The position numbers were made by a program, and so were the translations under genes. Source: Winslowiella iniecta (GTDB lineage: Bacteria > Pseudomonadota > Gammaproteobacteria > Enterobacterales > Enterobacteriaceae). From it: 64,000 nucleotides of DNA. Below the pieces are notes generated by a model. That model searched no databases and had not been told where the DNA came from. It saw only the letters and a program-made list of their open reading frames with translations. Below are positions 8,268-59,802 of this stretch, in pieces; the stretch's first letter is position 1; the number at the start of each line of letters is the position of its first letter. The stretch lies in contig NZ_JRXE01000004.1 in assembly GCF_001267535.1 (NCBI RefSeq), positions 146,428-210,427 on the forward strand. The letters run 5' to 3'.

Positions 8268-9713
<1,446 letters not shown>

Positions 9714-9723
9714 TCTTTGCGAC

Positions 9724-9743
9724 GGGCGGCGAAAACGCCGCCC
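9724..9743. terminator. Hairpin at the end of ascFB
   Basis: GGGCGGCG and CGCCGCCC pair perfectly around AAAA, 10 nt after the ascB stop and between it and the convergent DeoR gene. There is no T tract, so termination efficiency is uncertain. Confidence 0.6.
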
Positions 9744-9778
9744 CGACGGTGAATATTTCCGGCAGCAGCGCAGAATCT

Positions 9779-10549
9779 TTATACCCATTCGATCGCGATA
9801 TTTTTCGCCGTAAACGCCGCCAGCCTCTCTTCCGGCACACGCTTATCCACCACCATCAGCGAAATATCTTCGCATAACACGACCGAATAACGGGCGATGC
9901 CGGGAATTTTATCGGCGGTCAGCGCAACAATAATGTCGTTACTGCGCTCAACCACCGCTTTTTTGAATTCAGCATCTTCATAGTCAAATACCGTCAGTCC
10001 GGCATCGGCATCCATGGCACAACCGCCGAGAAAAGCCTGATCAAACCAGATATGGCTCAATTGCTGCTGCGGTGTGACGCCGAGGCTGCCGCCGGTCTGT
10101 TTCTGCAGCCGCCCTCCAAGCATAATCACTTCGCAGTGCGGATAGTTCATCAGCTCCACGGCAATCAGCGGCGAGTTGGTGACAACGGTCAGTTTCAGCT
10201 GCACCGGCAGTGCTTTCGCCATCGCCAGATTCGTTGAACCGGCATCAATATAAATACATCCGCCCTCCTTGACGCGCCGGGCGCAACCTGCGGCAATTGC
10301 AGTTTTTTCCGCACTGGATTCCCGCGCGCGATGGCTGAACGAGCCCGATTCCGTCACGATGCTGACGGCACCGCCATACACCTTTTTGCACACTCCCTCA
10401 CGCGCTAACTGCTGCAAATCTCGGCGGATAGTGTGTTCGGACACCTGTAACTGCGCGGAAAGGTCTGCGCATACTACCCGACCTTCATCACGGAGTTTCT
10501 GACGAATCAGGGATTGTCGCTGCTGCGGAAAAGCTGCATAATCGAGCAT
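9779..10549 (-). CDS. DeoR-family transcriptional regulator
   Basis: The start at 10549 (MLDYAAFPQQRQSLI) is preferred to the upstream 10615 because AAAGGAA sits just before it; this gives 256 residues. Residues about 8-60 form the DeoR winged helix (LSAQLQVSEHTIRRDLQQLA). Residues 75-235 are the sugar-phosphate sensor domain, with IYIDAGSTNLAMA, VVTNSPLIAVEL and a C-terminal VVDKRVPEE. Such proteins usually repress sugar or nucleoside genes and respond to a phosphorylated sugar. It is divergent from the MFS gene at 10649 with a 99-bp shared promoter gap, so that gene is the likely target. The effector is unknown. Confidence 0.85.
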   Translation of the reverse strand: MLDYAAFPQQRQSLIRQKLRDEGRVVCADLSAQLQVSEHTIRRDLQQLAREGVCKKVYGGAVSIVTESGSFSHRARESSAEKTAIAAGCARRVKEGGCIYIDAGSTNLAMAKALPVQLKLTVVTNSPLIAVELMNYPHCEVIMLGGRLQKQTGGSLGVTPQQQLSHIWFDQAFLGGCAMDADAGLTVFDYEDAEFKKAVVERSNDIIVALTADKIPGIARYSVVLCEDISLMVVDKRVPEERLAAFTAKNIAIEWV

Positions 10550-10648
10550 TAAATTTCCTTTATTTACCGTAATCGAGCAGAAATGAGCATACAGCATTAT
10601 CCCTGACGCATTCAATTTATCGATAACGGTGTAAGAGAACTTAGCGAA

Positions 10649-11815
10649 ATGTCAGATTACTCAAGGTCTTTACCGCAGCAGAGTGCCGATTTTATCCCGG
10701 CGAAGCGTGAACAGGGCGCAACCCGGTTGATGTTTTTTATTGCCGGTTTCGCCACTGCCGCGTGGGCGGCGCTGGTGCCGTTTGCCAAACTGAATACCGG
10801 CGTCAATGACGGCACGCTCGGGCTGTTGCTGCTGTGCCTTGGCGGTGGCGCGCTGGTGGCAATGCCGTTAACCGGGGTATTAACCACGCGTTTCGGCTGC
10901 CGTGCGGTGCTGATCACCTCAGTATTTATCTTCAGCCTGATTATGCCGTTGCTGGCGGTGATCCCTGACAGCGCCATGCTGGCGCTGGCGCTGCTCGGTT
11001 TTGGCGTGGGGATCGGTATTACCGACTGTGCAATGAATGTGCAGGCGATAATTGTTGAGAAAGCGTCGTCGAAGCCGGTTATGTCCGGGTTTCACGGCTT
11101 TTATAGCATTGGTGGTATCGCCGGAGCCGGTGCGATGAGCGGAATGATGTTACTCGGCCTCTCGCCATTCAGTGCCACTTTAATCATCGCACTACTGGTG
11201 TTGCTGCTGCTGCTGCTCAGTATCCGTGGTTTACTGAACTATGCCAATCCCGCCGAGGGGCCAGCTTTTGCGCTGCCGCGCGGCGCGGTACTGGTACTGG
11301 GCGCTATCTGTTTTGCCGTGTTCCTCGCCGAAGGGGCGGTACTTGACTGGAGTGCGGTGTTCCTCACCGAATACCGCGCATTACCCGACTCTGCTGGCGG
11401 CCTCGGTTTTGCCTGTTTCGCTGCTACCATGACCCTCGGGCGTCTAACTGGTGATCGCATCGTCGCGCGTTTTGGTCGTTATCCGGTGGTGATTGTCGGT
11501 GCCGTAGTGGCGGCGAGCGGTCTCGCCCTGACGATTTTTGTTCCGTTCTGGATATTTTCCCTGATTGGTTATGCGCTGATCGGCATCGGCTGCGCCAATA
11601 TCGTACCGGTGATGTTTTCAGCCATCGGCAGACAAACCAGTATGCCGCAGGCGGTTGCTGTACCGGCTATCTCGACGATGGGCTATATGGGCGTGCTCGC
11701 CGGGCCAGCGAGCATCGGCTTTGTAGCCCACTACAGTAGCCTGCCGGTGGCGTTTATGCTGGTAGCGCTGTTGCTGCTGGTCGTCGCGTGGGTGGCGCGG
11801 CGCGTCAAAATGTAA
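10649..11815 (+). CDS. MFS transporter, YbjJ-like
   Basis: A 388-residue protein with 12 predicted membrane helices and a short polar N-terminus. The segment GITDCAMNVQAIIVE followed by MSGFHGFYSIGGIAGA matches the YbjJ/FucP-like MFS subgroup, where a GxxxxAMNxxG-type helix is followed by HGxYSxGxxxG. The second half carries ATMTLGRLTGDRIVARFGR, the MFS loop motif. The substrate is unknown; the divergent DeoR regulator suggests a sugar or sugar-like compound. A hairpin at 11827 ends the gene before the lldR operator region. Confidence 0.83.
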   Translation: MSDYSRSLPQQSADFIPAKREQGATRLMFFIAGFATAAWAALVPFAKLNTGVNDGTLGLLLLCLGGGALVAMPLTGVLTTRFGCRAVLITSVFIFSLIMPLLAVIPDSAMLALALLGFGVGIGITDCAMNVQAIIVEKASSKPVMSGFHGFYSIGGIAGAGAMSGMMLLGLSPFSATLIIALLVLLLLLLSIRGLLNYANPAEGPAFALPRGAVLVLGAICFAVFLAEGAVLDWSAVFLTEYRALPDSAGGLGFACFAATMTLGRLTGDRIVARFGRYPVVIVGAVVAASGLALTIFVPFWIFSLIGYALIGIGCANIVPVMFSAIGRQTSMPQAVAVPAISTMGYMGVLAGPASIGFVAHYSSLPVAFMLVALLLLVVAWVARRVKM

Positions 11816-15843: not shown

Positions 15844-16137
15844 ATGACCAGAAGTGATGAAGAAAAATTAACCGACATTATGATGGGCGAAGCCGTCCTT
15901 GCACTTATCCGCGCCGACGGCGTGATTAGTAACGCTGCGTTGATCCATCAGTTGCAACTGATGGCGAAAGCGGAGAGTGATGGCGTTAAACGCCGTGCCT
16001 GCCAACGCGCGATTAATGAAGTGAGAGCCAGTCAGGCAGACAGCCACAAACGCGTGACGCATGAAATTCGTGGCAGGGACAATGTCGTGCATCTGTTTAC
16101 CAGTGACGGACCGGCTGATGGCACCAAAAAACACTGA
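15844..16137 (+). CDS. ymgA: YmgA-like connector protein
   Basis: 97 residues. The N-terminal half (MGEAVLALIRADGVISNAAL, then IHQLQLMAKAESDGVKRRA) follows the plan of E. coli YmgA (GQAVLQILR...LIKQL), and the C-terminal tail is polar and low-complexity, also as in YmgA. It sits between ycgZ and ariR just as in E. coli. A 194-nt gap with a GGTTCGCT/AGCGAAACC hairpin separates it from ycgZ, so it may have reduced or separate expression. Confidence 0.62.
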   Translation: MTRSDEEKLTDIMMGEAVLALIRADGVISNAALIHQLQLMAKAESDGVKRRACQRAINEVRASQADSHKRVTHEIRGRDNVVHLFTSDGPADGTKKH

Positions 16138-16208
16138 GCAGAAACGGCATTACGACTTTGCTAAACAGCCCGGCAGCATAAACTATTAATAGTTCAGAGG
16201 AATTACCC

Positions 16209-16463
16209 ATGCAGCAGTCGTCTACAGAAAGTCAGCTTTCTGATTATATCGAAAACGGTGGTGAAGGGCATTCGGCCGAAGCTGAGTTCATCGGCGCCGT
16301 TATTAAGGAAATTGTCGCTTCAGGTAAGCATGTGACCAATAAGGCCGTTATCCTGAAACTGATTGAAAAGCTGGAAACCACGACAGATGCGGTGACGCAA
16401 GATATTTATCGTGACGCGCTGGAGCTGGTAGTGGGTCGTACGCCAGATGACCCCGAGTTTTAA
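16209..16463 (+). CDS. ariR: AriR (YmgB) biofilm/acid-resistance regulator, second copy
   Basis: 84 residues with AGAGGAA before the ATG. It aligns with E. coli AriR: SDYIENGGEG, EAEFIGAVIKEIV, SGKHVTNKAVILKLIEKLET and DIYRDALELVVGRTPDDPEF, where the final acidic tail matches the E. coli ending. AriR is a helical homodimer reported to affect biofilm formation and acid tolerance and to act with the RcsC sensor. It closes the ycgZ-ymgA-ariR group; the betT terminator follows on the other strand. Confidence 0.78.
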   Translation: MQQSSTESQLSDYIENGGEGHSAEAEFIGAVIKEIVASGKHVTNKAVILKLIEKLETTTDAVTQDIYRDALELVVGRTPDDPEF

Positions 16464-16528
16464 CCTACGTTTTTCGCCACCGCCGCGCTGACCCCACCTT
16501 TTTTTTAAAATACCCGCTTCTGATTACC

Positions 16529-16554
16529 GCAGGCCAGCAGAATCTCTGGCCTGC
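16529..16554. terminator. Hairpin between ariR and betT
   Basis: GCAGGCCAG pairs with CTGGCCTGC around an 8-nt loop in the convergent gap. T-rich DNA (16500-16506) precedes it on the plus strand; the A-rich side serves the betT transcript, so it may act in both directions. Confidence 0.65.
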
Positions 16555-16565
16555 GCTTCTGCTAA

Positions 16566-18599
16566 TTAAACATTGGGGAAGGTGATATTATTCCCCGGTG
16601 CTTCACGATGCAGGTGAATAAAGTTCAGGTGACGTTCATACTGGTCAAGGATATCAATAATGACCTGATCCTTACTGTAATCCATCAAATCATTGCCCTG
16701 ACTGCCCTCAAGCAGGAAAGTCTCCAGACGATAATAGGTAGATTTACCGCTACGCGCGCGATAGGTAAAGCCCGGTACCGAGTATTGCTGCGGCCACACC
16801 TGATAGACGAAATCCTGTTCTTCTCCCAGATTGACACGCAATTCGAGATGGCCCAGATTTTCATCATCAGCGGGCGGCAGGTTTTCCAGCGTCACTCTTC
16901 CGCCACGCAGTTCAAGCTCCTTGGCCACATCCTGCATGGCAGGTAACATCACGGTTTCCATCATCTGCTGGGTATAGCGAGTACCCGGATAATTCATTAA
17001 GCGTGAAAGCCGTTTTTTCCAGCTCAGGCGATCCTGCCCGCTTATCAGATAAGGTGCCGTATCACGGTTGGCGCTTACGCGGCGATAATCTTCAACTTTC
17101 AGTGATTTATATAATCCTGCCATCACAAAAAAGATCACGAAGCTGAACGGAAGACCCATGATGACCGTGGCATTCTGTAGTGCAGTGATACCGTTAGTCG
17201 ACAGCATTCCCAGCGTCAGCACACCAATGGTGACTGACCAGAAAATGCGCAGCCAGTTTGGCGCATCGCTGTTGATATCTTTTAGCTTCGAAGTAAAGTT
17301 ACCGAGTACCAGCGAGCCGGAATCTGCCGAGGTGACATAGAAAAGCATACCGGTGATGGTGGCGACCGACGCACTTAATTTAAATGCCGGATATTGCGCC
17401 AGCAGGCTGTAGAAACCACGCTCAGCATGCGACATCACTTCCTGCGCAAATCCCGCGTTACCATGGATGATCTCGTACAGTGCGGCATTACCAAACACTG
17501 AGAGCCATAGCAGGGTAAAGGTAAACGGAATAATCAGTGTGCCAAGCACAAACTCGCGGATAGTACGGCCACGGGAGATACGCGCCAGGAACAGGCCAAC
17601 AAACGGCGACCAGGCCACCCACCATGCCCAGAAGAACAGGGTCCAGCTGTTCATCCACTCACCAGGCCGGTCAAAAGCAAAGGTGTTTAACGTCATACCC
17701 ATAAAGCGATTGATATAGTCGCCAACGTTGAGTACCAGCGCGTTTAACAGGAATTCAGTATTACCGGCAAACAGCACGAACAGGATTAAACCTAACGCCA
17801 GGGCGACATTCAGCTCTGACAGAATACGAATACCCTTGTCGACACCCGAGGTGACGGAAATCGTCGCGATCACCACCGACAGTACAATTAACGCGGTTTG
17901 CGCTCCCAGGCCTTCCGGAATGTCGAACAGCACTTTCAGACCGTAGTTTAACTGCACGACGCCAATACCCAGCGTGGTGGCGATACCAAAGATGGTGCCG
18001 ACGACGGCGGCGATATCCACCGTATGGCCAATCGGGCCATTAATGCGTTTGCCAAAAATAGGGTAGAGCGCCGAACGGATGGTGAGCGGCAGATTGTAGC
18101 GATAGCTGAAGTAGCCCAGTGCAATGCCCATCAGCGCATACATTGACCAGCCGGTCAGACCGTAGTGGAACAGGGTCCATACCATCGCCTGACGGGCAGC
18201 TTCAAAGGTCTGCCCGGCGCCTTCAGGCGGCTGCATATATTGCGTCACTGGCTCTGCGACCGAGAAGAACATCAGGTCGATACCGATGCCCGCAGCAAAC
18301 AGCATGGCGGCCCAGCTGAGTACGCTGAACTCCGGTTTCGACTGTTCAGGGCCAAGTTTTATGGAGCCAAAGCGCGAGCAGGCAACAAACAGCACGAAAA
18401 CGATATAGACTGTGGCCGCTAACATGTAATACCAGCCAAATGTTGCCGATACCCAGTTTACTGCCTTTAGAATCCATCTGGCTGACAGATCGCTGTAAAA
18501 AATAGTCATCAAAGAAAACGCTAAAATCAGCCCGGCTGAGGTGTAGAACACCACGGGGTTGATTCTGTCTTTCTCTTCGGCAGGTGGATTATTCATCAA
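16566..18599 (-). CDS. betT: High-affinity choline transporter BetT (BCCT family)
   Basis: 677 residues, the same length as E. coli BetT and nearly collinear with it (for example NPVVFYTSAGLIL, SKPEFSVLSWAAMLFAAGIG, WTLFFWAWWVAWSPFVGLF). Twelve membrane helices occupy about residues 15-515; the last 150 or so residues form the cytosolic C-terminal domain that senses osmotic stress, ending LNFIHLHREAPG. It imports choline, driven by the proton gradient, for oxidation to glycine betaine. In E. coli betT is divergent from betIBA; here its neighbour is an unrelated DUF421 gene, so the oxidation genes must be elsewhere if present. A BetI-like operator lies 196 bp upstream. Confidence 0.95.
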   Translation of the reverse strand: MMNNPPAEEKDRINPVVFYTSAGLILAFSLMTIFYSDLSARWILKAVNWVSATFGWYYMLAATVYIVFVLFVACSRFGSIKLGPEQSKPEFSVLSWAAMLFAAGIGIDLMFFSVAEPVTQYMQPPEGAGQTFEAARQAMVWTLFHYGLTGWSMYALMGIALGYFSYRYNLPLTIRSALYPIFGKRINGPIGHTVDIAAVVGTIFGIATTLGIGVVQLNYGLKVLFDIPEGLGAQTALIVLSVVIATISVTSGVDKGIRILSELNVALALGLILFVLFAGNTEFLLNALVLNVGDYINRFMGMTLNTFAFDRPGEWMNSWTLFFWAWWVAWSPFVGLFLARISRGRTIREFVLGTLIIPFTFTLLWLSVFGNAALYEIIHGNAGFAQEVMSHAERGFYSLLAQYPAFKLSASVATITGMLFYVTSADSGSLVLGNFTSKLKDINSDAPNWLRIFWSVTIGVLTLGMLSTNGITALQNATVIMGLPFSFVIFFVMAGLYKSLKVEDYRRVSANRDTAPYLISGQDRLSWKKRLSRLMNYPGTRYTQQMMETVMLPAMQDVAKELELRGGRVTLENLPPADDENLGHLELRVNLGEEQDFVYQVWPQQYSVPGFTYRARSGKSTYYRLETFLLEGSQGNDLMDYSKDQVIIDILDQYERHLNFIHLHREAPGNNITFPNV

Positions 18600-19112
18600 T
18601 TACCTCTGGTTATGCGATTACAAATCTCTCAGTGAGTAAGACTTACACGCCAGACCATGTCTGGAAACAGGGATAACCCTTCAATTCTTCCGTGTACTCG
18701 TTGTTTATCACCGTTTTTAACAGACATTAATCCTGGCACGCCATTTCGTTTATGACTGAAATTATTCACGCCTTCAGACTAACAGCTCTGGTTCTTATAT
18801 TGAACGGTCAATATAAAAAAGTTTACCCGGTTGATTGCTGGTGGCAGATTTACTAAACGGGGGATGCCGCAGCACAACTGGCCTGAGACGCCAGCCGGGT
18901 CACTGATGAGTAAATCAGCAGTTTCTGAAGAAATGCGGATTTGGTTGATTTTTGCTCAGCGGTTGACACTGCATCGGTTAAAGCGATGCAGGGATTTAGC
19001 GAATGTCTTATCATATCTGTGCAGACGAGGAGACTGTTTCTTAGGATTAATCCGTATTGGCTCAGATCTCAGACCGGCCGTTAATCCGTTAGTTCAGCAA
19101 GAGGGAATCAAA
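18600..19112. other. betT / DUF421 divergent intergenic region
   Basis: 513 bp with no gene I can support. It holds the BetI-like palindrome at 18795-18816 and the ribosome site of the DUF421 gene. A frame extending the DUF421 gene upstream from 18831 has no ribosome site and no recognisable sequence, so I treat it as non-coding. Confidence 0.6.
18795..18816. promoter_or_regulatory. BetI-like operator
   Basis: A perfect 9-bp inverted repeat, TTATATTGA and TCAATATAA, around ACGG. It contains ATTGAACG, the core of the E. coli BetI site in the betT-betI region. It lies 196 bp upstream of betT and 297 bp before the DUF421 start. It implies choline-responsive repression by a BetI encoded elsewhere. 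Confidence 0.75.
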
Positions 19113-54249: not shown

Positions 54250-54426
54250 ACCGCAGGGCGAATGATGACACTTTTTTGTCTGCTGACCGACGTCGAACTT
54301 GATCGCCAACAAATAAATGAATATGGTCAAGGGAGTAAGCGTAACGCTAAGTGCGCAAATCAATAACTCACTGGAAAAAACGCTCGTCAGTAACAGGGAA
54401 GTAAAGCTGTGGCACGGGAGGTTCAT

Positions 54427-55104
54427 ATGTTAACGCGGGATTTCTTATTAAAAGCAGACTGTAAAACTGCTTTTGGTTCCATCGAGGAGTCGTTGTTGTG
54501 GACCTGCGAACAGCGCGCAGCATCGCTGGCGGCAGCATTAACCTGCCGTCCGGATAACAGCCCGGTGTGGATTTTTGGCTATGGGTCACTGATGTGGAAC
54601 CCGATCTTTGAATCAGATGAGGTGGCCAGTGGCACGCTGCAAGGCTGGCATCGCGCATTCTGTTTACGGTTGACTGCCGGACGCGGTACTCATCATCAGC
54701 CTGGCCGTATGCTGGCGCTGAAAGAGGGCGGGAACACCAGTGGTCTGGCATTTCGCTTACCGGAAGAGAAGCTGTATGAAGAGCTTGAGCTGCTGTGGAA
54801 GCGCGAAATGATTACCGGCTGTTACCTGCCGACCTGGTGTGAGCTGGCGCTGGATGACGGACGTAAAGTGACCGCGCTGGTGTTTGTGATGGATCCGCGC
54901 CATCCATTGTATGAATCTGACAGTTGCGCAACCACCATTGCGCCATTAATCGCCCATGCCAGCGGGCCGTTAGGCACCAATGCGCAGTATCTCTACTCGC
55001 TGGATCAGGAGCTAAAAAATCGTGGTATGCACGATGATTGTCTGACAGATTTAGTACAGCAGGTGCGCGAGTTGCAAAATTGTCATCACGGAATGCAGGG
55101 GTAA
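54427..55104 (+). CDS. chaC: Gamma-glutamylcyclotransferase ChaC
   Basis: ATG 54427 with GGGAG 6 nt upstream gives 225 residues. The GGCT fold starts PVWIFGYGSLMWNP (substrate P-loop GYGSL), then GWHRAFCLRLTAGRGTHHQP and LPEEKLYEELELLWKREM, which contains the catalytic Glu, then YLPTWCEL. ChaC enzymes split glutathione to 5-oxoproline and Cys-Gly. Very close to E. coli ChaC in the core, with a shorter, different C-terminal tail. It is convergent with an MFS gene; a strong hairpin separates them. Confidence 0.92.
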   Translation: MLTRDFLLKADCKTAFGSIEESLLWTCEQRAASLAAALTCRPDNSPVWIFGYGSLMWNPIFESDEVASGTLQGWHRAFCLRLTAGRGTHHQPGRMLALKEGGNTSGLAFRLPEEKLYEELELLWKREMITGCYLPTWCELALDDGRKVTALVFVMDPRHPLYESDSCATTIAPLIAHASGPLGTNAQYLYSLDQELKNRGMHDDCLTDLVQQVRELQNCHHGMQG

Positions 55105-55112
55105 GCGTTTTT

Positions 55113-55140
55113 CCAGCAGCGGCGCTAATGCCGCTGCTGG
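55113..55140. terminator. Bidirectional terminator between chaC and the MFS gene
   Basis: An 11-bp perfect stem CCAGCAGCGGC/GCCGCTGCTGG around GCTAAT, preceded by GTTTTT on the plus strand. Confidence 0.75.
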
Positions 55141-55145
55141 CCTGC

Positions 55146-56339
55146 TTATCTCGCCGTCGCTTCAGGTCTGAATAACATCAACAGCAGTAACCCGGAGAGT
55201 AAGCTTATCAAAACCGCGCACAGCATCAGGTAGTGCACCGCGCCATTATTTCCCGCCAGCAAGAACAGCGTAAACCCGACCACCGGCAGGATCGACTGGC
55301 AGAACAACACCACCAACGATGAAGCACTGGCCAGTATGGATGTTGGAATAATTTCGATCCTTATTATTCTGTTTATATTTCCGGTAATCACCTTGCCGAT
55401 AATGGTCAGGGCATAGCATAAAATAAATATCGTCAGGGAAGAGGTATGAAAGATTAACAGCAAAGAGGGAATAACAATCATCACTAAGCCAAAAGATAAA
55501 AGCAGCCTTCTGGAGAGCATTGTCAGCATAGCACCATAAACATAGGTGCCGACCACGCCACAGACGCCGGCTGCCACATCAATCAGCCCGAAGTATTTAA
55601 CCGGCAACTGCATATTTTTATCGATTAACGCGGTGCCTGATGATTCGACTAATCCATCAAACATATTATTGCCCAACGCCAGCCCGATAATCGCCAGCAC
55701 CAGCGGCGTGGACAAGATAAAACGTAAGGCGATAAACCGATTGAACGGCTGCTGCTCAGGTGCCGTAGATGATGATTCACTTAGCTGAACGGTGTTTAAC
55801 TGGTCGGCAGCGCGGAAAAAGTACCAGGCATTAATCAAATAAAACACGCAGGGTATCAGCAGCAGATTCTTATAGCCGTAATCAATTAACAGCATTCCGA
55901 CTATCGGGCCAATAATCATGCCGAGGAAGTCCATCCTTGCCATCAGATTAACATGGTGCTCACGCTGTACGCTTAACGTGGCGATCAGCTTTTCATAGGC
56001 AATCATGGTCTGCGAGTTGCCGATGGAAATCAGGCTACCCACGGCACCAAAGGCAATAGCCACAGTCAACGGATCGGTAAAGTTGCTGAAAATAAGCAAC
56101 AAGCACCCGGCAACTTTAATGCAGTCAGAAATAATCGATAACGGCCTGACGCCCGTGTTATCAATATATTTCCCGATTAACGGTATCAGAATCAGGCGCG
56201 GTAACCACCATATGGCATAAGATAATCCGGAGTACGCCAGGCTTCCGGTCAGCATATACACCACCACCGGGGTTAAAAACACCATTAATCCGTCAGCGGT
56301 CAGCACTAAAAATAGCAGGGAAAATAAGCGGGTGGTCAT
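55146..56339 (-). CDS. MFS exporter, third gene of the small-protein/cupin operon
   Basis: 397 residues with 12 predicted helices. The N-terminus LFSLLFLVLTADGLMVFLTP and the helix 2-3 loop GKYIDNTGVRPLSIISDC (MFS loop motif variant) are MFS-like; the short polar region QLSESSSTAPEQQPFNRFIA separates the halves. It resembles exporters of peptides, antibiotics or siderophores in size, but substrate-specific motifs are absent. The ATG overlaps the cupin gene stop (ATGA), so it is made together with the cupin protein. It probably exports the product of this operon; that is inference. Confidence 0.78.
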   Translation of the reverse strand: MTTRLFSLLFLVLTADGLMVFLTPVVVYMLTGSLAYSGLSYAIWWLPRLILIPLIGKYIDNTGVRPLSIISDCIKVAGCLLLIFSNFTDPLTVAIAFGAVGSLISIGNSQTMIAYEKLIATLSVQREHHVNLMARMDFLGMIIGPIVGMLLIDYGYKNLLLIPCVFYLINAWYFFRAADQLNTVQLSESSSTAPEQQPFNRFIALRFILSTPLVLAIIGLALGNNMFDGLVESSGTALIDKNMQLPVKYFGLIDVAAGVCGVVGTYVYGAMLTMLSRRLLLSFGLVMIVIPSLLLIFHTSSLTIFILCYALTIIGKVITGNINRIIRIEIIPTSILASASSLVVLFCQSILPVVGFTLFLLAGNNGAVHYLMLCAVLISLLSGLLLLMLFRPEATAR

Positions 56340-57649
56340 GGGGTTGCCTTGTCTTGTACTTTTTCTTTTAAGAGGACTTTCACATATTTTCCCGTGCTTT
56401 CATCGTAGACTACCACCGATTTCGGTGTGTTATGGCTGGGAAGATCTTTCATCATTTCATGTTGTCTGGCTACCATCTCAATATAGTAATCCATATCAGC
56501 TGCTGTCGGGTTAGTTTTGTAACTGATATAATCGGTGTTCTCAATAGGCCAGTCAATAACATCATGCCCTGGCAAGTAATCACCTTGTTTATCAAGATAG
56601 ATAATCGGACGATTGACAGTAATGATCTTTGCCATATTAAGCAGGGCATGTGCAACTCCGCACGGGATAATAAGTTCAACGTCAGGAGAAGGATAAAATG
56701 TCAGCTCTTCTTCAACAAATAAGGTATCCGAACCTTCTCGCATATCAACCAACATCAGCGTGATCGGCTGTTTTTTGCTGCCAAGGAAAATCAGATGATC
56801 TTCCTGCCCAAGATGCAATCCATAGGAGTCAAAGTCATAATTCTTTGTTCCGTGTTCGACAAGATAAAAAGGGGTTTTCCTCGTGAGCGGAATAATGCCG
56901 CTCTCTTTTCCGGTTTTAATTGAGGGTAGGGTTTTGAATGATACGCCATTGATCCTGGAGATAGCTAAGTCAGTATGACTGCTTTCCTCGATTTTTTCCC
57001 TCAGTTTCAAATTGACCTTCCTACCATCATCCAGCATGAACTCACGTGTTTCTGCATGTTGATACTGATGCTTTTGTAAGTGCTCGGCCTGAAAATCTGC
57101 CACCCGATGATAAACTAAATCCGCTGCCGCTTCTGACATGGGCTGATACCCCACGATCTCTTCTGTCAGGATATCTTCCGGTATGTTGATAATGTCATTT
57201 TCTGGCGACCATTGCGTCGTGCCGTGAGGGAACTGCTCCAGTGGCGGCAGAAAAATTTTATAGGTATTCAAAGTGAATATATTTTCTAAGTTATGGAAAG
57301 TATGTGCGACCCCGGGAGGAATGATGAGTGTTTTTTCTGATGAGGGAGTGATATAAAAGCTCATTCTTTGTTTGAAGGTGACTGAGTTTTTACGGCAGTC
57401 AATAAATTTCGCCAGTATTCTCTGCTTTTCATCGCCGAGAAACGTTAACGTATCCTGTTGGCCAAGGTGAATGCCATATTGCCCATACTTAAACTTGCTC
57501 TCTCCATGATAAACAATATTAACAGGATAAGTGGTCGGAAAGGGAATAACAAATGAGTCTTTCTGACCATTGTTAATTCGCCAGCGAGGAATCCAGTGCA
57601 GGCCTGCTATCAACATATCGCTATTAAGTTCTTCGATATAATGGCTCAT
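56336..57649 (-). CDS. Tandem RmlC-like cupin protein
   Basis: 437 residues with two cupin halves (about residues 30-140 and 250-360), similar to each other: YGIHLGQQDTLTFLG / YGLHLGQEDHLIFLG, and IIPPGVAHTFHNL / IIPCGVAHALLNM. The layout follows dTDP-4-dehydrorhamnose 3,5-epimerase (RmlC): G-L-H at His61 and His279, the V-D-x-R-x-x-S strand (IDCRKNSVTF, VDMREGSDTL) and the P-x-G-V-A-H turn (His116, His334). Both halves keep the catalytic-type His. No other sugar-pathway gene is near. A polar linker (residues 165-245) joins them. Preceding gene: an 87-residue protein; following: an MFS exporter. A role as isomerase, or as modifier of a small molecule or the small protein, is inference. Confidence 0.65.
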   Translation of the reverse strand: MSHYIEELNSDMLIAGLHWIPRWRINNGQKDSFVIPFPTTYPVNIVYHGESKFKYGQYGIHLGQQDTLTFLGDEKQRILAKFIDCRKNSVTFKQRMSFYITPSSEKTLIIPPGVAHTFHNLENIFTLNTYKIFLPPLEQFPHGTTQWSPENDIINIPEDILTEEIVGYQPMSEAAADLVYHRVADFQAEHLQKHQYQHAETREFMLDDGRKVNLKLREKIEESSHTDLAISRINGVSFKTLPSIKTGKESGIIPLTRKTPFYLVEHGTKNYDFDSYGLHLGQEDHLIFLGSKKQPITLMLVDMREGSDTLFVEEELTFYPSPDVELIIPCGVAHALLNMAKIITVNRPIIYLDKQGDYLPGHDVIDWPIENTDYISYKTNPTAADMDYYIEMVARQHEMMKDLPSHNTPKSVVVYDESTGKYVKVLLKEKVQDKATP

Positions 57650-57693
57650 ATTATCGCCCTGTGTAAAAAGGCAGCCTGAGCTGCCTCTTGTGA

Positions 57694-57957
57694 TTAAATA
57701 TTGACTATTTCAATATCATACCCGGCTTCCTGAGCACTGCTTAACAATGTGCAAAGGTTACTGGTATTCAACTGAGCATATTTATCATCTGCCGGAGCGT
57801 TCTTTATGCCAGCCAGCCAGGCTAGCTTGTCGATTGCTGCTGTGGTGGCATTTCTGGTTTGCAGAATCATATCGGTAAAGACATTAGTTTCAATATCTTG
57901 ATCGACAATCACGGGAGCATCTTTATACATTCTTGCAACTTCTGAAAGTTTAATCAT
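57694..57957 (-). CDS. Small 87-residue protein, first gene of the cupin/MFS operon
   Basis: 87 residues, ATG 57957 with GAGGTG 4 nt upstream, so translation should be strong. Sequence begins MIKLSEVARMYKDAP, then DQDIETNVFTDMILQTRNA, TTAAIDKLAWLAGIKNA, and ends EAGYDIEIVNI. One Cys lies in NTSNLCTLLSSA. No membrane helix, signal peptide or known domain is seen; helix is likely through residues 25-48 and 64-78. It is acidic. Size, position at the front of the operon and strong ribosome site recall precursor peptides or carrier proteins, but no double-glycine leader site or 4-phosphopantetheine motif is present. Function unknown. Confidence 0.6.
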   Translation of the reverse strand: MIKLSEVARMYKDAPVIVDQDIETNVFTDMILQTRNATTAAIDKLAWLAGIKNAPADDKYAQLNTSNLCTLLSSAQEAGYDIEIVNI

Positions 57958-58307
57958 AAAACACCTCGTTTAGATATGTGTTAAATTACCCGTCAGTTTG
58001 AGTTGAGAATACAGAAGGAATGCAACGTCTATTCCGACGATATTGATATCACCGGTGTCAACGACCTGTCAATGATTTAGAATTTTTAATTAAAATCTTT
58101 TAATATTATAATCAATTAAATGATTATTAAATTGTGATAATTCCGGTTAAGAATGCTGTTAATTAACACGATTATTTCAGTGTCAAAAGTAATTATGCAG
58201 AAAACGAGACCCGATATGTTGGGTCCCGGTTAAGTGAGAAGAGGCGTTTCCGTTCGAATAGCTAAATTGACCTTTCATTACTGAAAAGCGTTGCTGACCG
58301 GCCTTCG
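57958..58307. other. AT-rich region between the cupin operon and the T6SS operon
   Basis: 350 bp without a gene. 58075-58200 is strongly AT-rich and should contain the promoter of the small-protein operon (which reads left). At 58201-58225 GACCC/GGGTC pair around GATATGTT with AAAA before it on the plus strand, which on the minus strand is a hairpin with CGTTTTC tail, a likely T6SS terminator 83 nt after ppkA. Confidence 0.55.
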
Positions 58308-59747
58308 CTATTGCTGCTGTCCAGGATTAATCAGCCAGGTGCCCGCGCGGTCAATCTTCACTGTCTGCGCCCGCACCCCCTGTTTCTGGCGCAGTTCAAT
58401 GTTATATTCACCGGCGGCCAGATGGAGCACAGCAAAACCCTTGTTACCGGGCTTGATATCCATTGCCTCACCGTTCAGCACCAACGACTCACCGGTTTTC
58501 AGCTTAAGATACACCGTAGCCAGTGCAGGCGCATCGCTGGCGCTTGCTGCCACCGGATCGACCGCAGCAGGAATGCTGCTGACGGAGGCGGCATGTTCCA
58601 CGGTGTTATTGCCGCTGTTATCGCGATTGATAAACAGCGTCAGCGCAATCACCGCCAGCAGCGCCACGCCACTCAGCACCATCAGGGCAGGGGAAAGGCG
58701 GCGCGGCGTGGTTGGCGTCACCAGATTATCTGCCGCGCCGGCGGTCGGGTTAACCGCGAGGATCACCGCTTCAGGAACGGCAGTCTCTTCTGCTTCCTCC
58801 GCTTCTTCATTCGGTGCAGTTACCGCGCTGACCAGCTCCTGAACCTCACTGACCGGCAGATCGATTAATGCTGCCAGTGCGTCGATATTTTGCGGACGAT
58901 CCTCCGGCTTCATCGCCAGCGCGCAATCAATCGCATGCAGCAGTGACAGCGAATAGCCTGCGGGTTGCAGCTGCGCCAGCGGCTGATAGTTATCTTCAAT
59001 ACAGCGCACCACACTGGCCGGTGGCGGGTTACCGGTGACCAGCGTATGCAGAACCGCACCCAGCGCGTAGATATCCGTCCACGGCCCTTGCTCGCTGTCG
59101 CTCTCTTCACTGTATTGCTCAATCGGGGCGAAGCCTGGCTTCAGCATGATTTCGGTTTCATCCGCGAGGTTGCCAATCTCTTTACGCGCTGAGCCAAAAT
59201 CCAGCAGCACCGGCAGCTGATTTTCCTGAATCTGAATGTTATCGAGAGAGATATCGCGATGCAGATAACCGGCGCGATGAAGGGTGTTGATTGCACCAAA
59301 CAGTGGCGACAGCAGCTGGCGGATCCAGCTCTCGTCTATCGCTTGCGGACTGGTCAGCTGCCACTCTTTCAGCGTCATCCCGCTGTAGTAGAGCGTGCCC
59401 ATATAAGCGGTGCCATTCTCTTCCCAGAAACGCAACACGTGCAGCAGGCCGGGGTGATTAAAGCGCGCCAGCAGGCGGGCTTCCAGAATAAAGCTGTTCA
59501 GCCCGGCATGGAACATTTTATGGTAACGTTCACCGCGCAGGCCAAGGCTCAGATCCTCGTTGCGCATCGCCAGTGAAAGGGGCATGTACTCTTTGATGGC
59601 AATAGTGCGTTCTAATAAATGGTCCCAGGCGCGATAGACAATACCGAATCCACCGCCGCCAATCACTTCCTTGATCTCGAATTCATTGAAACGGTGCCCG
59701 GCAGGTAATGCATTTGGCACGGTTTTTTGATGCTCATTTGCCGACAT
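58308..59747 (-). CDS. ppkA: T6SS serine/threonine kinase PpkA
   Basis: The start at 59747 (MSANEHQKTVPN) with AGAGAG 8 nt upstream gives 479 residues. The kinase domain (about residues 20-300) has the glycine loop EVIGGGGFGIVYRAWD, the lysine in RTIAIKEYMP, the catalytic LHRDISLDNIQI and the LLDFGSARK magnesium loop, so it should be active. A membrane helix (LSPALMVLSGVALLAVIALT, about residues 355-374) is followed by a periplasmic region with ATVYLKLKTGESLVLNG. PpkA phosphorylates Fha/TagH on threonine to switch on T6SS; PppA opposes it. Last gene of the minus-strand T6SS operon in this window. Confidence 0.85.
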   Translation of the reverse strand: MSANEHQKTVPNALPAGHRFNEFEIKEVIGGGGFGIVYRAWDHLLERTIAIKEYMPLSLAMRNEDLSLGLRGERYHKMFHAGLNSFILEARLLARFNHPGLLHVLRFWEENGTAYMGTLYYSGMTLKEWQLTSPQAIDESWIRQLLSPLFGAINTLHRAGYLHRDISLDNIQIQENQLPVLLDFGSARKEIGNLADETEIMLKPGFAPIEQYSEESDSEQGPWTDIYALGAVLHTLVTGNPPPASVVRCIEDNYQPLAQLQPAGYSLSLLHAIDCALAMKPEDRPQNIDALAALIDLPVSEVQELVSAVTAPNEEAEEAEETAVPEAVILAVNPTAGAADNLVTPTTPRRLSPALMVLSGVALLAVIALTLFINRDNSGNNTVEHAASVSSIPAAVDPVAASASDAPALATVYLKLKTGESLVLNGEAMDIKPGNKGFAVLHLAAGEYNIELRQKQGVRAQTVKIDRAGTWLINPGQQQ

Positions 59748-59802
59748 ATTTGACACTCTCTGAGAGCTAACGGCCTGATTACAGCAGGCTGTACGCCTGC
59801 GA

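Follow-up and report, generated by a model that had tools for sequence, protein, structure and literature searches.

What joint function could hold together a gene for a small protein, a gene for a doubled relative of sugar epimerases and a transporter gene? The question is raised by three minus-strand genes in a 64,000-nucleotide stretch of the Winslowiella iniecta contig NZ_JRXE01000004.1 (the window in what follows). As given by the list of open reading frames (ORFs), they encode an 87-aa small protein (57694-57957), a 437-aa tandem RmlC-fold protein (56336-57649; the cupin hereafter) and a 397-aa transporter of the major facilitator superfamily (MFS; 55146-56339). An earlier note on this DNA had singled them out as one unit, with 44 nucleotides between the small and cupin genes and an ATGA overlap between the cupin and MFS genes, and had likened the layout of small gene, modifying enzyme and exporter to natural-product pathways, possibly of a new type. 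The arrangement is as it described, and we find that the three genes form a genuine unit, which moves as one. It is best read as a mobile, horizontally spread and self-contained cassette, and we propose, tentatively and with slightly less than even confidence, that it makes and exports a small natural product for which the small protein would be the ribosomal substrate or scaffold.

The three genes recur together and move as a block

Relatives were located by cupin motifs alone in the genomes of named species, where 57 stretches matched, 27 of them being confirmed and 30 not. The confirmed cupins are spread over Chimaeribacter, Pantoea, Serratia, Dickeya, Proteus, Erwinia, Xenorhabdus, Pseudomonas, Streptomyces, Streptacidiphilus, Actinomadura and Catellatospora, and each is adjoined by a small gene and has an MFS gene downstream (27/27 in either case). 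Because the layout recurs in every named relative, it is beyond chance, and the proviso in the earlier note that the three genes might fail to co-occur elsewhere falls away. Two subfamilies can be told apart: in subfamily 1 (L018-L034; 17/27), a homologue of the window small protein is encoded directly upstream of the cupin in all 17 loci, and in subfamily 2 (L035-L044; 10/27), the first tandem cupin gene is followed immediately downstream by a small gene whose product, of 90-93 aa, belongs to a separate family.

Within the genus, the cupin was found in 3 of 37 genomes (as two frames in G030), and the small-protein profile, run on its own, matched the identical three. Nine of the 295 genomes sampled from the family gave a match, five of them with the full tandem cupin and with the small and MFS genes adjoining it (5/5); two others are canonical RmlC proteins (L009 and L010), one is a fragment with stops (L008) and L011 was left unclassified. 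The cupin profile matched 2/394 genomes in the order sample at E 1e-15 and 1/398 in the phylum sample at E 1e-10, the window's own genome included in both; the figures come from samples that passed a loose first filter and so indicate rarity only roughly. In a plasmid collection, the four small-protein matches fell in the same four records that hold full-length cupin matches, and plasmid-borne copies occur in Chimaeribacter and Pantoea. At a length of 4.1 Mb, two records catalogued as plasmids of Proteus could be chromosomes. A phage or viral origin was considered and rejected: no relatives of the cassette were found in phage records, and none of the 14 stretches of viral contigs that matched a pattern was a relative.

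When ORFs of at least 80 aa were compared across 11 enteric loci, taking families present in at least three loci and setting antisense overlaps aside, only the small, cupin and MFS families crossed genera; all other recurrent families were confined to four Proteus loci with one common insertion site. The distances of the small proteins and the cupins correlate (r = 0.90 over 11 loci; permutation p = 0.0005, the lowest possible with 2000 permutations), and the mean divergence over 11 sequences is 0.34 for the small protein, 0.29 for the cupin and 0.42 for the MFS protein, this comparison leaving out L023 with its split MFS gene, L026 and the near-duplicates L005-L007, L012 and L014. Between the window and L002, the closest relative found, the nonsynonymous and synonymous divergences (dN/dS) are 0.077/0.85 for the small gene, 0.088/1.02 for the cupin and 0.103/0.97 for the MFS gene, and all three look to be under purifying selection.

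The site in Winslowiella itself points to an insertion. As delimited by comparison with congeners, the insert extends approximately over 55105..58307 (no strand assigned), between a plus-strand gene labelled chaC in the earlier note (54409-55104) and a minus-strand gene (58308-59756) that is part of the block labelled there as a type VI secretion system (T6SS). It is absent at this site in five of the seven congeners examined (G033, G005, G036, G004 and G020), 88 bases separating the matched chaC-side and T6SS-side blocks in G033; in G034, it occupies the identical site as in the window, and in G030, the unit lies on a different contig from its chaC. The three-gene segment is indeed AT-rich, as had been remarked, with a G+C content of 44.3% versus 52.1% for the window, and equally low values occur in 7 of 612 same-length sliding stretches (steps of 100, overlaps counted). 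In four Proteus species (L022-L025, about 6.0-9.5 kb), the cassette adjoins a gene of the GGACT family that resembles gamma-glutamylcyclotransferases (as tested against Pfam in L025); its likeness to the so-called chaC neighbour in the window is probably a coincidence.

A tandem RmlC-fold protein distinct from RmlC

The cupin matches PF00908 at 43.2 bits against a cut-off of 27, in two stretches that correspond to two similar halves (about residues 1-222 and 223-437), whereas RmlC is a single domain of about 180 aa. A profile built from 17 relatives gives 25 PDB matches at E 0.01 or better, 23 of which are labelled RmlC-type sugar epimerases; the remaining two are labelled PCZA361.16, which we take to be the related epimerase EvaD. 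These matches, together with the PF00908 score, speak for a diverged RmlC that would carry out the 3,5-epimerisation of a deoxysugar for a surface polysaccharide. Against this, the score for the RmlC equivalog model TIGR01221 is 36.1 bits, far below the cut-off of 155.75, which the control RmlC proteins found among the relatives (L009 and L010) clear with 166.8 and 270.2; further, each half carries a similar C-terminal extension that is absent from the two controls.

The catalytic His of RmlC lies in the motif RG[LM]H and removes a proton beside a carbonyl, and the other residues with a role are an Arg, the Lys of KLV, the Tyr of [FV]YK and the Asp of [KR]D. We aligned four N-terminal and four C-terminal halves with the two RmlC controls. 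Retained are the His of RG[LM]H (H61 and H279), D.R..S and PxG..H; the two histidines are invariant in 17/17 aligned sequences, as is the motif Y-G-[IL]-H-L-G-Q-x-D in both halves, the cupin alignments leaving out L003/L004 and L026, in which the cupin is in two frames. The earlier note had correctly recognised GxH and PxGVAH in both halves of the window protein; in the second half of the actinobacterial copies, the latter reads PxGVGH. Of the other RmlC residues, the Lys of KLV is replaced by Thr (Ile in the second half of the window protein), the Tyr of [FV]YK by Leu, Val or Ile in both halves, and the Arg before the His motif by Tyr when counted outward from the His, where the aligner leaves a gap. 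The Asp of [KR]D has no clear counterpart, in a region where the alignment is uncertain.

Given a score far below the cut-off, the doubling and the loss of several RmlC residues, the cupin is, on its sequence features, RmlC-fold but not RmlC. The genome contains no second PF00908 match and six matches to the RmlD model, none above its cut-off (RmlA and RmlB were not searched for). With the RmlC residues lost and neither another PF00908 protein nor an RmlD over the cut-off, the cupin probably no longer binds a nucleotide sugar. As no sugar genes are common to the enteric loci either, we disfavour the deoxysugar explanation and hold it to be very improbable.

Several loci contain further or altered cupin-like genes. 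The subfamily-2 locus L035 encodes a second tandem cupin-like protein (9698-11005). Another is found in L016, a Streptomyces plasmid (13368-14513); its second half looks degenerate by eye, and the protein matches no Pfam family at E 0.001. The same plasmid shows a third layout (15882-18765), in which two cupin-like ORFs of one domain each precede an 85-aa gene with an LGKI motif, followed by a strong hairpin and an MFS gene; one of the single-domain ORFs matches PF00908 below the cut-off, and the other has no Pfam match at E 0.001 and is related via BLAST to the window cupin. In a Leptolyngbya plasmid (L017, 7436-8546), an 88-aa gene is followed by a single RmlC-like protein, with PF00908 below the cut-off and no annotated MFS gene adjoining; this may be a cyanobacterial relative of the small-cupin pair. 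The cupin gene in two frames in L026 (6959-8295) comes from an uncultured Erwinia assembly.

An MFS partner that recurs without a conserved sequence

The window transporter matches PF07690 at 57.9 bits against a cut-off of 33.4. BLAST comparison with one representative each detected no similarity between it and the two MFS types of the actinobacterial subfamily-1 loci (E 2.5 or worse), which are themselves weakly related (28% over 222 aa between the L028 and L033 types). The accompanying actinobacterial cupins are 39-43% identical to the window cupin; thus, an MFS partner recurs though its sequence does not. The top scores of the actinobacterial transporters, all below the respective cut-offs, are to the H+ antiporter model TIGR00900, Tet(V) and the enterobactin exporter EntS, and we infer that the MFS protein exports rather than imports. 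Carriers of this superfamily usually move small molecules. The MFS gene of Proteus penneri ATCC 33519 is broken into two pieces (L023, 8290-9467).

Conserved features of the small protein

In 18 relatives drawn from both phyla, the invariant residues of the small protein are M1, L48-A49-G50-I51-K52, L63, T65, L71, A75, G79, Y80 and E83, which define a conserved LAGIK motif and a C-terminal GY[DE][IV]E tail. The window protein has no match in Pfam, NCBIfam, PHROG, PADLOC or PDB, and its family profile finds only four PDB matches, all at E 0.057 or worse; hence, the possibility allowed for in the earlier note that it belongs to a known housekeeping family gains nothing from these searches. Its description there as acidic suits the window protein (isoelectric point, pI, 4.4) and two subfamily-1 actinobacterial proteins (4.05 and 4.23) and does not carry over to two enteric relatives, which are nearer neutral (6.2 and 6.7). 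A central motif, LAGIK or LGKI, can be recognised by eye some 35 residues from the C-terminus in the small proteins of both subfamilies. In one subfamily-2 locus (L040, 8016-8294 and 8526-8807), the small gene is duplicated, with a GC-rich hairpin after each copy.

Control elements and neighbouring regulators

RNA folding places a minus-strand hairpin between the small and cupin genes (57666..57689), with a 10 bp stem, a 4-nt loop and a T-run behind it; a T-run follows the stem in several enteric hairpins. Across 13 enteric sequences, the pairing is kept despite differing sequences, with 97.4% of 117 cells paired and 5 of 9 pairs changed on both sides. The covariation score is 0.315 against 0.185 in shuffles (0/500 as high) and has its maximum at slide 0, and one of the five measures, that of further pair types, is not above shuffles (442/500 as high); as the 13 sequences are related, these shuffle counts are not probabilities. 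For 2 of 11 enteric gaps (L020 and L021), 7 and 9 of 100 shuffles had a perfect stem at least as long. The enteric hairpin looks like an attenuator or a 3' stabiliser. A covarying hairpin at this position would be expected if more of the small protein than of the enzyme is needed.

Upstream of the small gene, which is preceded by a GAGGTG Shine-Dalgarno-like stretch, a by-eye reading of the enteric upstream alignment picks out a minus-strand TTGACA resembling a -35 element (58067..58072). It lies about 110 nt before the small gene, occurs without a mismatch in 9 of the 12 enteric upstream regions in the alignment and has GATATC 16 nt beyond it, at 58045-58050. The element, not flagged by a consensus scan, suggests that the cassette has its own promoter. 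Between the upstream gene (ending at 58308) and the cassette, there is also a terminator-like stem on the minus strand (58205..58228) with eight pairs and a T-rich tail; it is weak evidence alone, as 7 terminator-like sites were found versus 3.9 +/- 1.9 in shuffles.

A leading small gene with a promoter-like element upstream, in a unit of patchy and partly plasmid-borne distribution, would also suit a secreted bacteriocin-like or signalling peptide, with the cupin as its immunity or maturation partner. We give this little credence: by eye, the window protein has neither a signal nor a double-glycine leader, export of an 87-aa protein by an MFS carrier would be unusual, and a search of a defence library gave no match.

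Several of the actinobacterial units have LysR, LuxR-type or SARP-type regulators nearby. A LysR-type regulator is encoded directly upstream of the cassette in L029 (5399-6343), ORFs related to it are present in 5 of the 7 actinobacterial subfamily-1 loci, and regulators with a BTAD domain (SARP-type) occur near L028 and L031.

A proposed biosynthesis-and-export cassette and the evidence against it

A block that is kept across phyla, moves between sites, combines with MFS proteins of variable sequence and, in several actinobacteria, has SARP-type or LysR neighbours is best read as a cassette for biosynthesis and export. Within such a cassette, the position of the small gene at the head of the unit in subfamily 1, its duplication in one locus of subfamily 2 and the attenuator-like hairpin of the enterics favour a role for its product as substrate or scaffold. 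We propose that the small protein would be ribosomally made for this purpose and bound by the tandem RmlC-fold protein, which would carry out an acid/base reaction via the conserved His of each barrel. By analogy with RmlC, this would most likely be an isomerisation or epimerisation, as these are what proton removal beside a carbonyl would amount to if applied to a peptide; which reaction takes place is guessed from the fold. If a protease of the host takes part, it would free the product, and the MFS protein would export it and protect the producer. The substrate role of the small protein, the reaction type and product release are thus steps that we infer. We consider it doubtful that the cassette is, more narrowly, a near-minimal one common to Enterobacterales and Streptomyces for a ribosomally synthesized and post-translationally modified peptide (RiPP), with the tandem RmlC-fold protein as sole maturase acting, for example, by alpha-carbon epimerisation or isomerisation. 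It may rather be described as a variant of the small-peptide natural-product cassettes, with its RiPP membership unproven.

Several observations weigh against this proposal. Conservation in the small protein is highest in the C-terminal half, a variable core is not obvious, and no motif for leader/core cleavage was seen by eye in the small proteins. No protease is among the genes common to the enteric loci, although a host protease could serve, and the three proteins show no leader-recognition domain of Pfam, dedicated recognition-domain models not having been applied. Homology between the small proteins of subfamilies 1 and 2 is unproven (hhalign probability 0.3%). The hairpin, solid in enterics, is unspecific in the actinobacterial loci: of the 7 gaps that follow a subfamily-1 small gene there, only L028 and L030 beat shuffles by perfect-stem length, and strong hairpins are also present in the cupin-MFS gap of 4 of the 7 loci. 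Regions following the small gene in subfamily 2 and L016 reach a z of -3.0 or lower in 8 of 14 cases (single-base shuffles). We therefore rejected the hairpin as a universal feature. Finally, PF14407, a predicted family of ribosomally synthesized peptides in its Pfam description, matches just 6 of 18 small proteins, all of them actinobacterial, over short stretches and with a best E of 0.0012 (19.5 bits versus a cut-off of 48); the helix-turn-helix family HTH_37 matches 4 of 18 about as weakly (best E 0.028), and the window protein matches neither. The matches to both models fall mostly on the segment of helix plus tail (helix-AGY.VE) and are below the cut-off in the member tables viewed; they are leads, not assignments. 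Thus, the natural-product interpretation of the earlier note is only partly supported: the co-occurrence of the genes stands, and the modification, cleavage and export of the small protein are predictions from sequence, the conserved C-terminal half being unlike the variable core of a RiPP and a protease being missing from the common genes.

The HTH_37 matches bear on a different explanation, in which the unit is a regulated detoxification or transport operon and the small protein an XRE-type regulator of the cupin and a drug or sugar transporter. The small gene comes first in the unit, and NCBI labels the small protein of two relatives 'XRE family transcriptional regulator' (L012, 9693-9956; L013, 9690-9953). 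This label is unsupported in our analysis: the window protein matches no helix-turn-helix family even at E 1 to 10, and HTH_37 is below its cut-off in all three member tables viewed. As the window protein is acidic and several actinobacterial units have their own regulators nearby, we regard a regulator as improbable.

The conserved tail and the missing protease keep alive, at about half the weight of the proposed substrate role, the explanation that a free metabolite of the cell is the substrate of the tandem RmlC-fold enzyme; the small protein would then be an obligate partner or chaperone of this enzyme, and the MFS protein would export the product. The strict pairing of small protein and cupin and their parallel divergence would fit a protein-protein complex, the conserved C-terminal tail would fit a docking segment, and a small-molecule cargo is what is usual for MFS carriers. 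It would be odd, however, for a structural subunit to be replaced in subfamily 2 by a protein that is not demonstrably related and to be once duplicated there, and the enteric hairpin after the small gene suggests separate tuning, perhaps to an excess over the enzyme. On balance, we see an accessory subunit as a real though rather unlikely alternative.

Relation to known systems

The bacilysin pathway offers a parallel to the cupin and transporter: BacB, a bicupin isomerase with two barrels, is paired with the MFS exporter BacE. The cupin of that pair is of another branch, and the pathway has other biosynthetic genes and no small protein. With RmlC (PF00908, TIGR01221), the cassette cupin shares the fold by profile and, in both halves, the RG[LM]H His and PxG..H; it differs in having two domains per chain with an extension in each half, in the lost Arg, Lys and Tyr and in the score far below the cut-off. 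The likeness to precursors of the NHLP/Nif11 type and of PF14407, 'Frankia_peptide', extends to the weak local matches in six of the small proteins, all far below the cut-off. The biphenomycin-like pbs RiPP cluster likewise groups a gene-encoded short peptide, a cupin-fold enzyme and an MFS gene; there, the cupin-like enzyme is a JmjC-related hydroxylase, accompanied by an MNIO, a radical SAM enzyme, an arginase and a metalloprotease, whereas the genes common to the cassette include one RmlC-fold protein and no protease (PMC12257519). For Synechococcus, mention has been made of a Nif11/cupin cluster that includes a putative epimerase (PMC10783134). The main text of PMC7794033 makes no mention of cupin, epimerase, rhamnose or MFS.

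Among the matches listed from the open-licence literature (titles and abstract starts), we found no description of a small/cupin/MFS unit, no RmlC-fold protein as the sole enzyme of a RiPP-type cluster and no described pathway for this cupin of the kind that the earlier note had envisaged. The constant association of the three kinds of gene from enterics to Streptomyces suggests an undescribed route to make and export a small natural product. If the proposal holds, the family labels of XRE regulator and rhamnose epimerase would have to be corrected, and because of such labels genome-mining tools may be missing the unit. Were the small protein the substrate, an RmlC-fold enzyme would act on a peptide, for which the same matches hold no precedent; a sugar-epimerase fold would then have moved to peptide chemistry, in just three genes.

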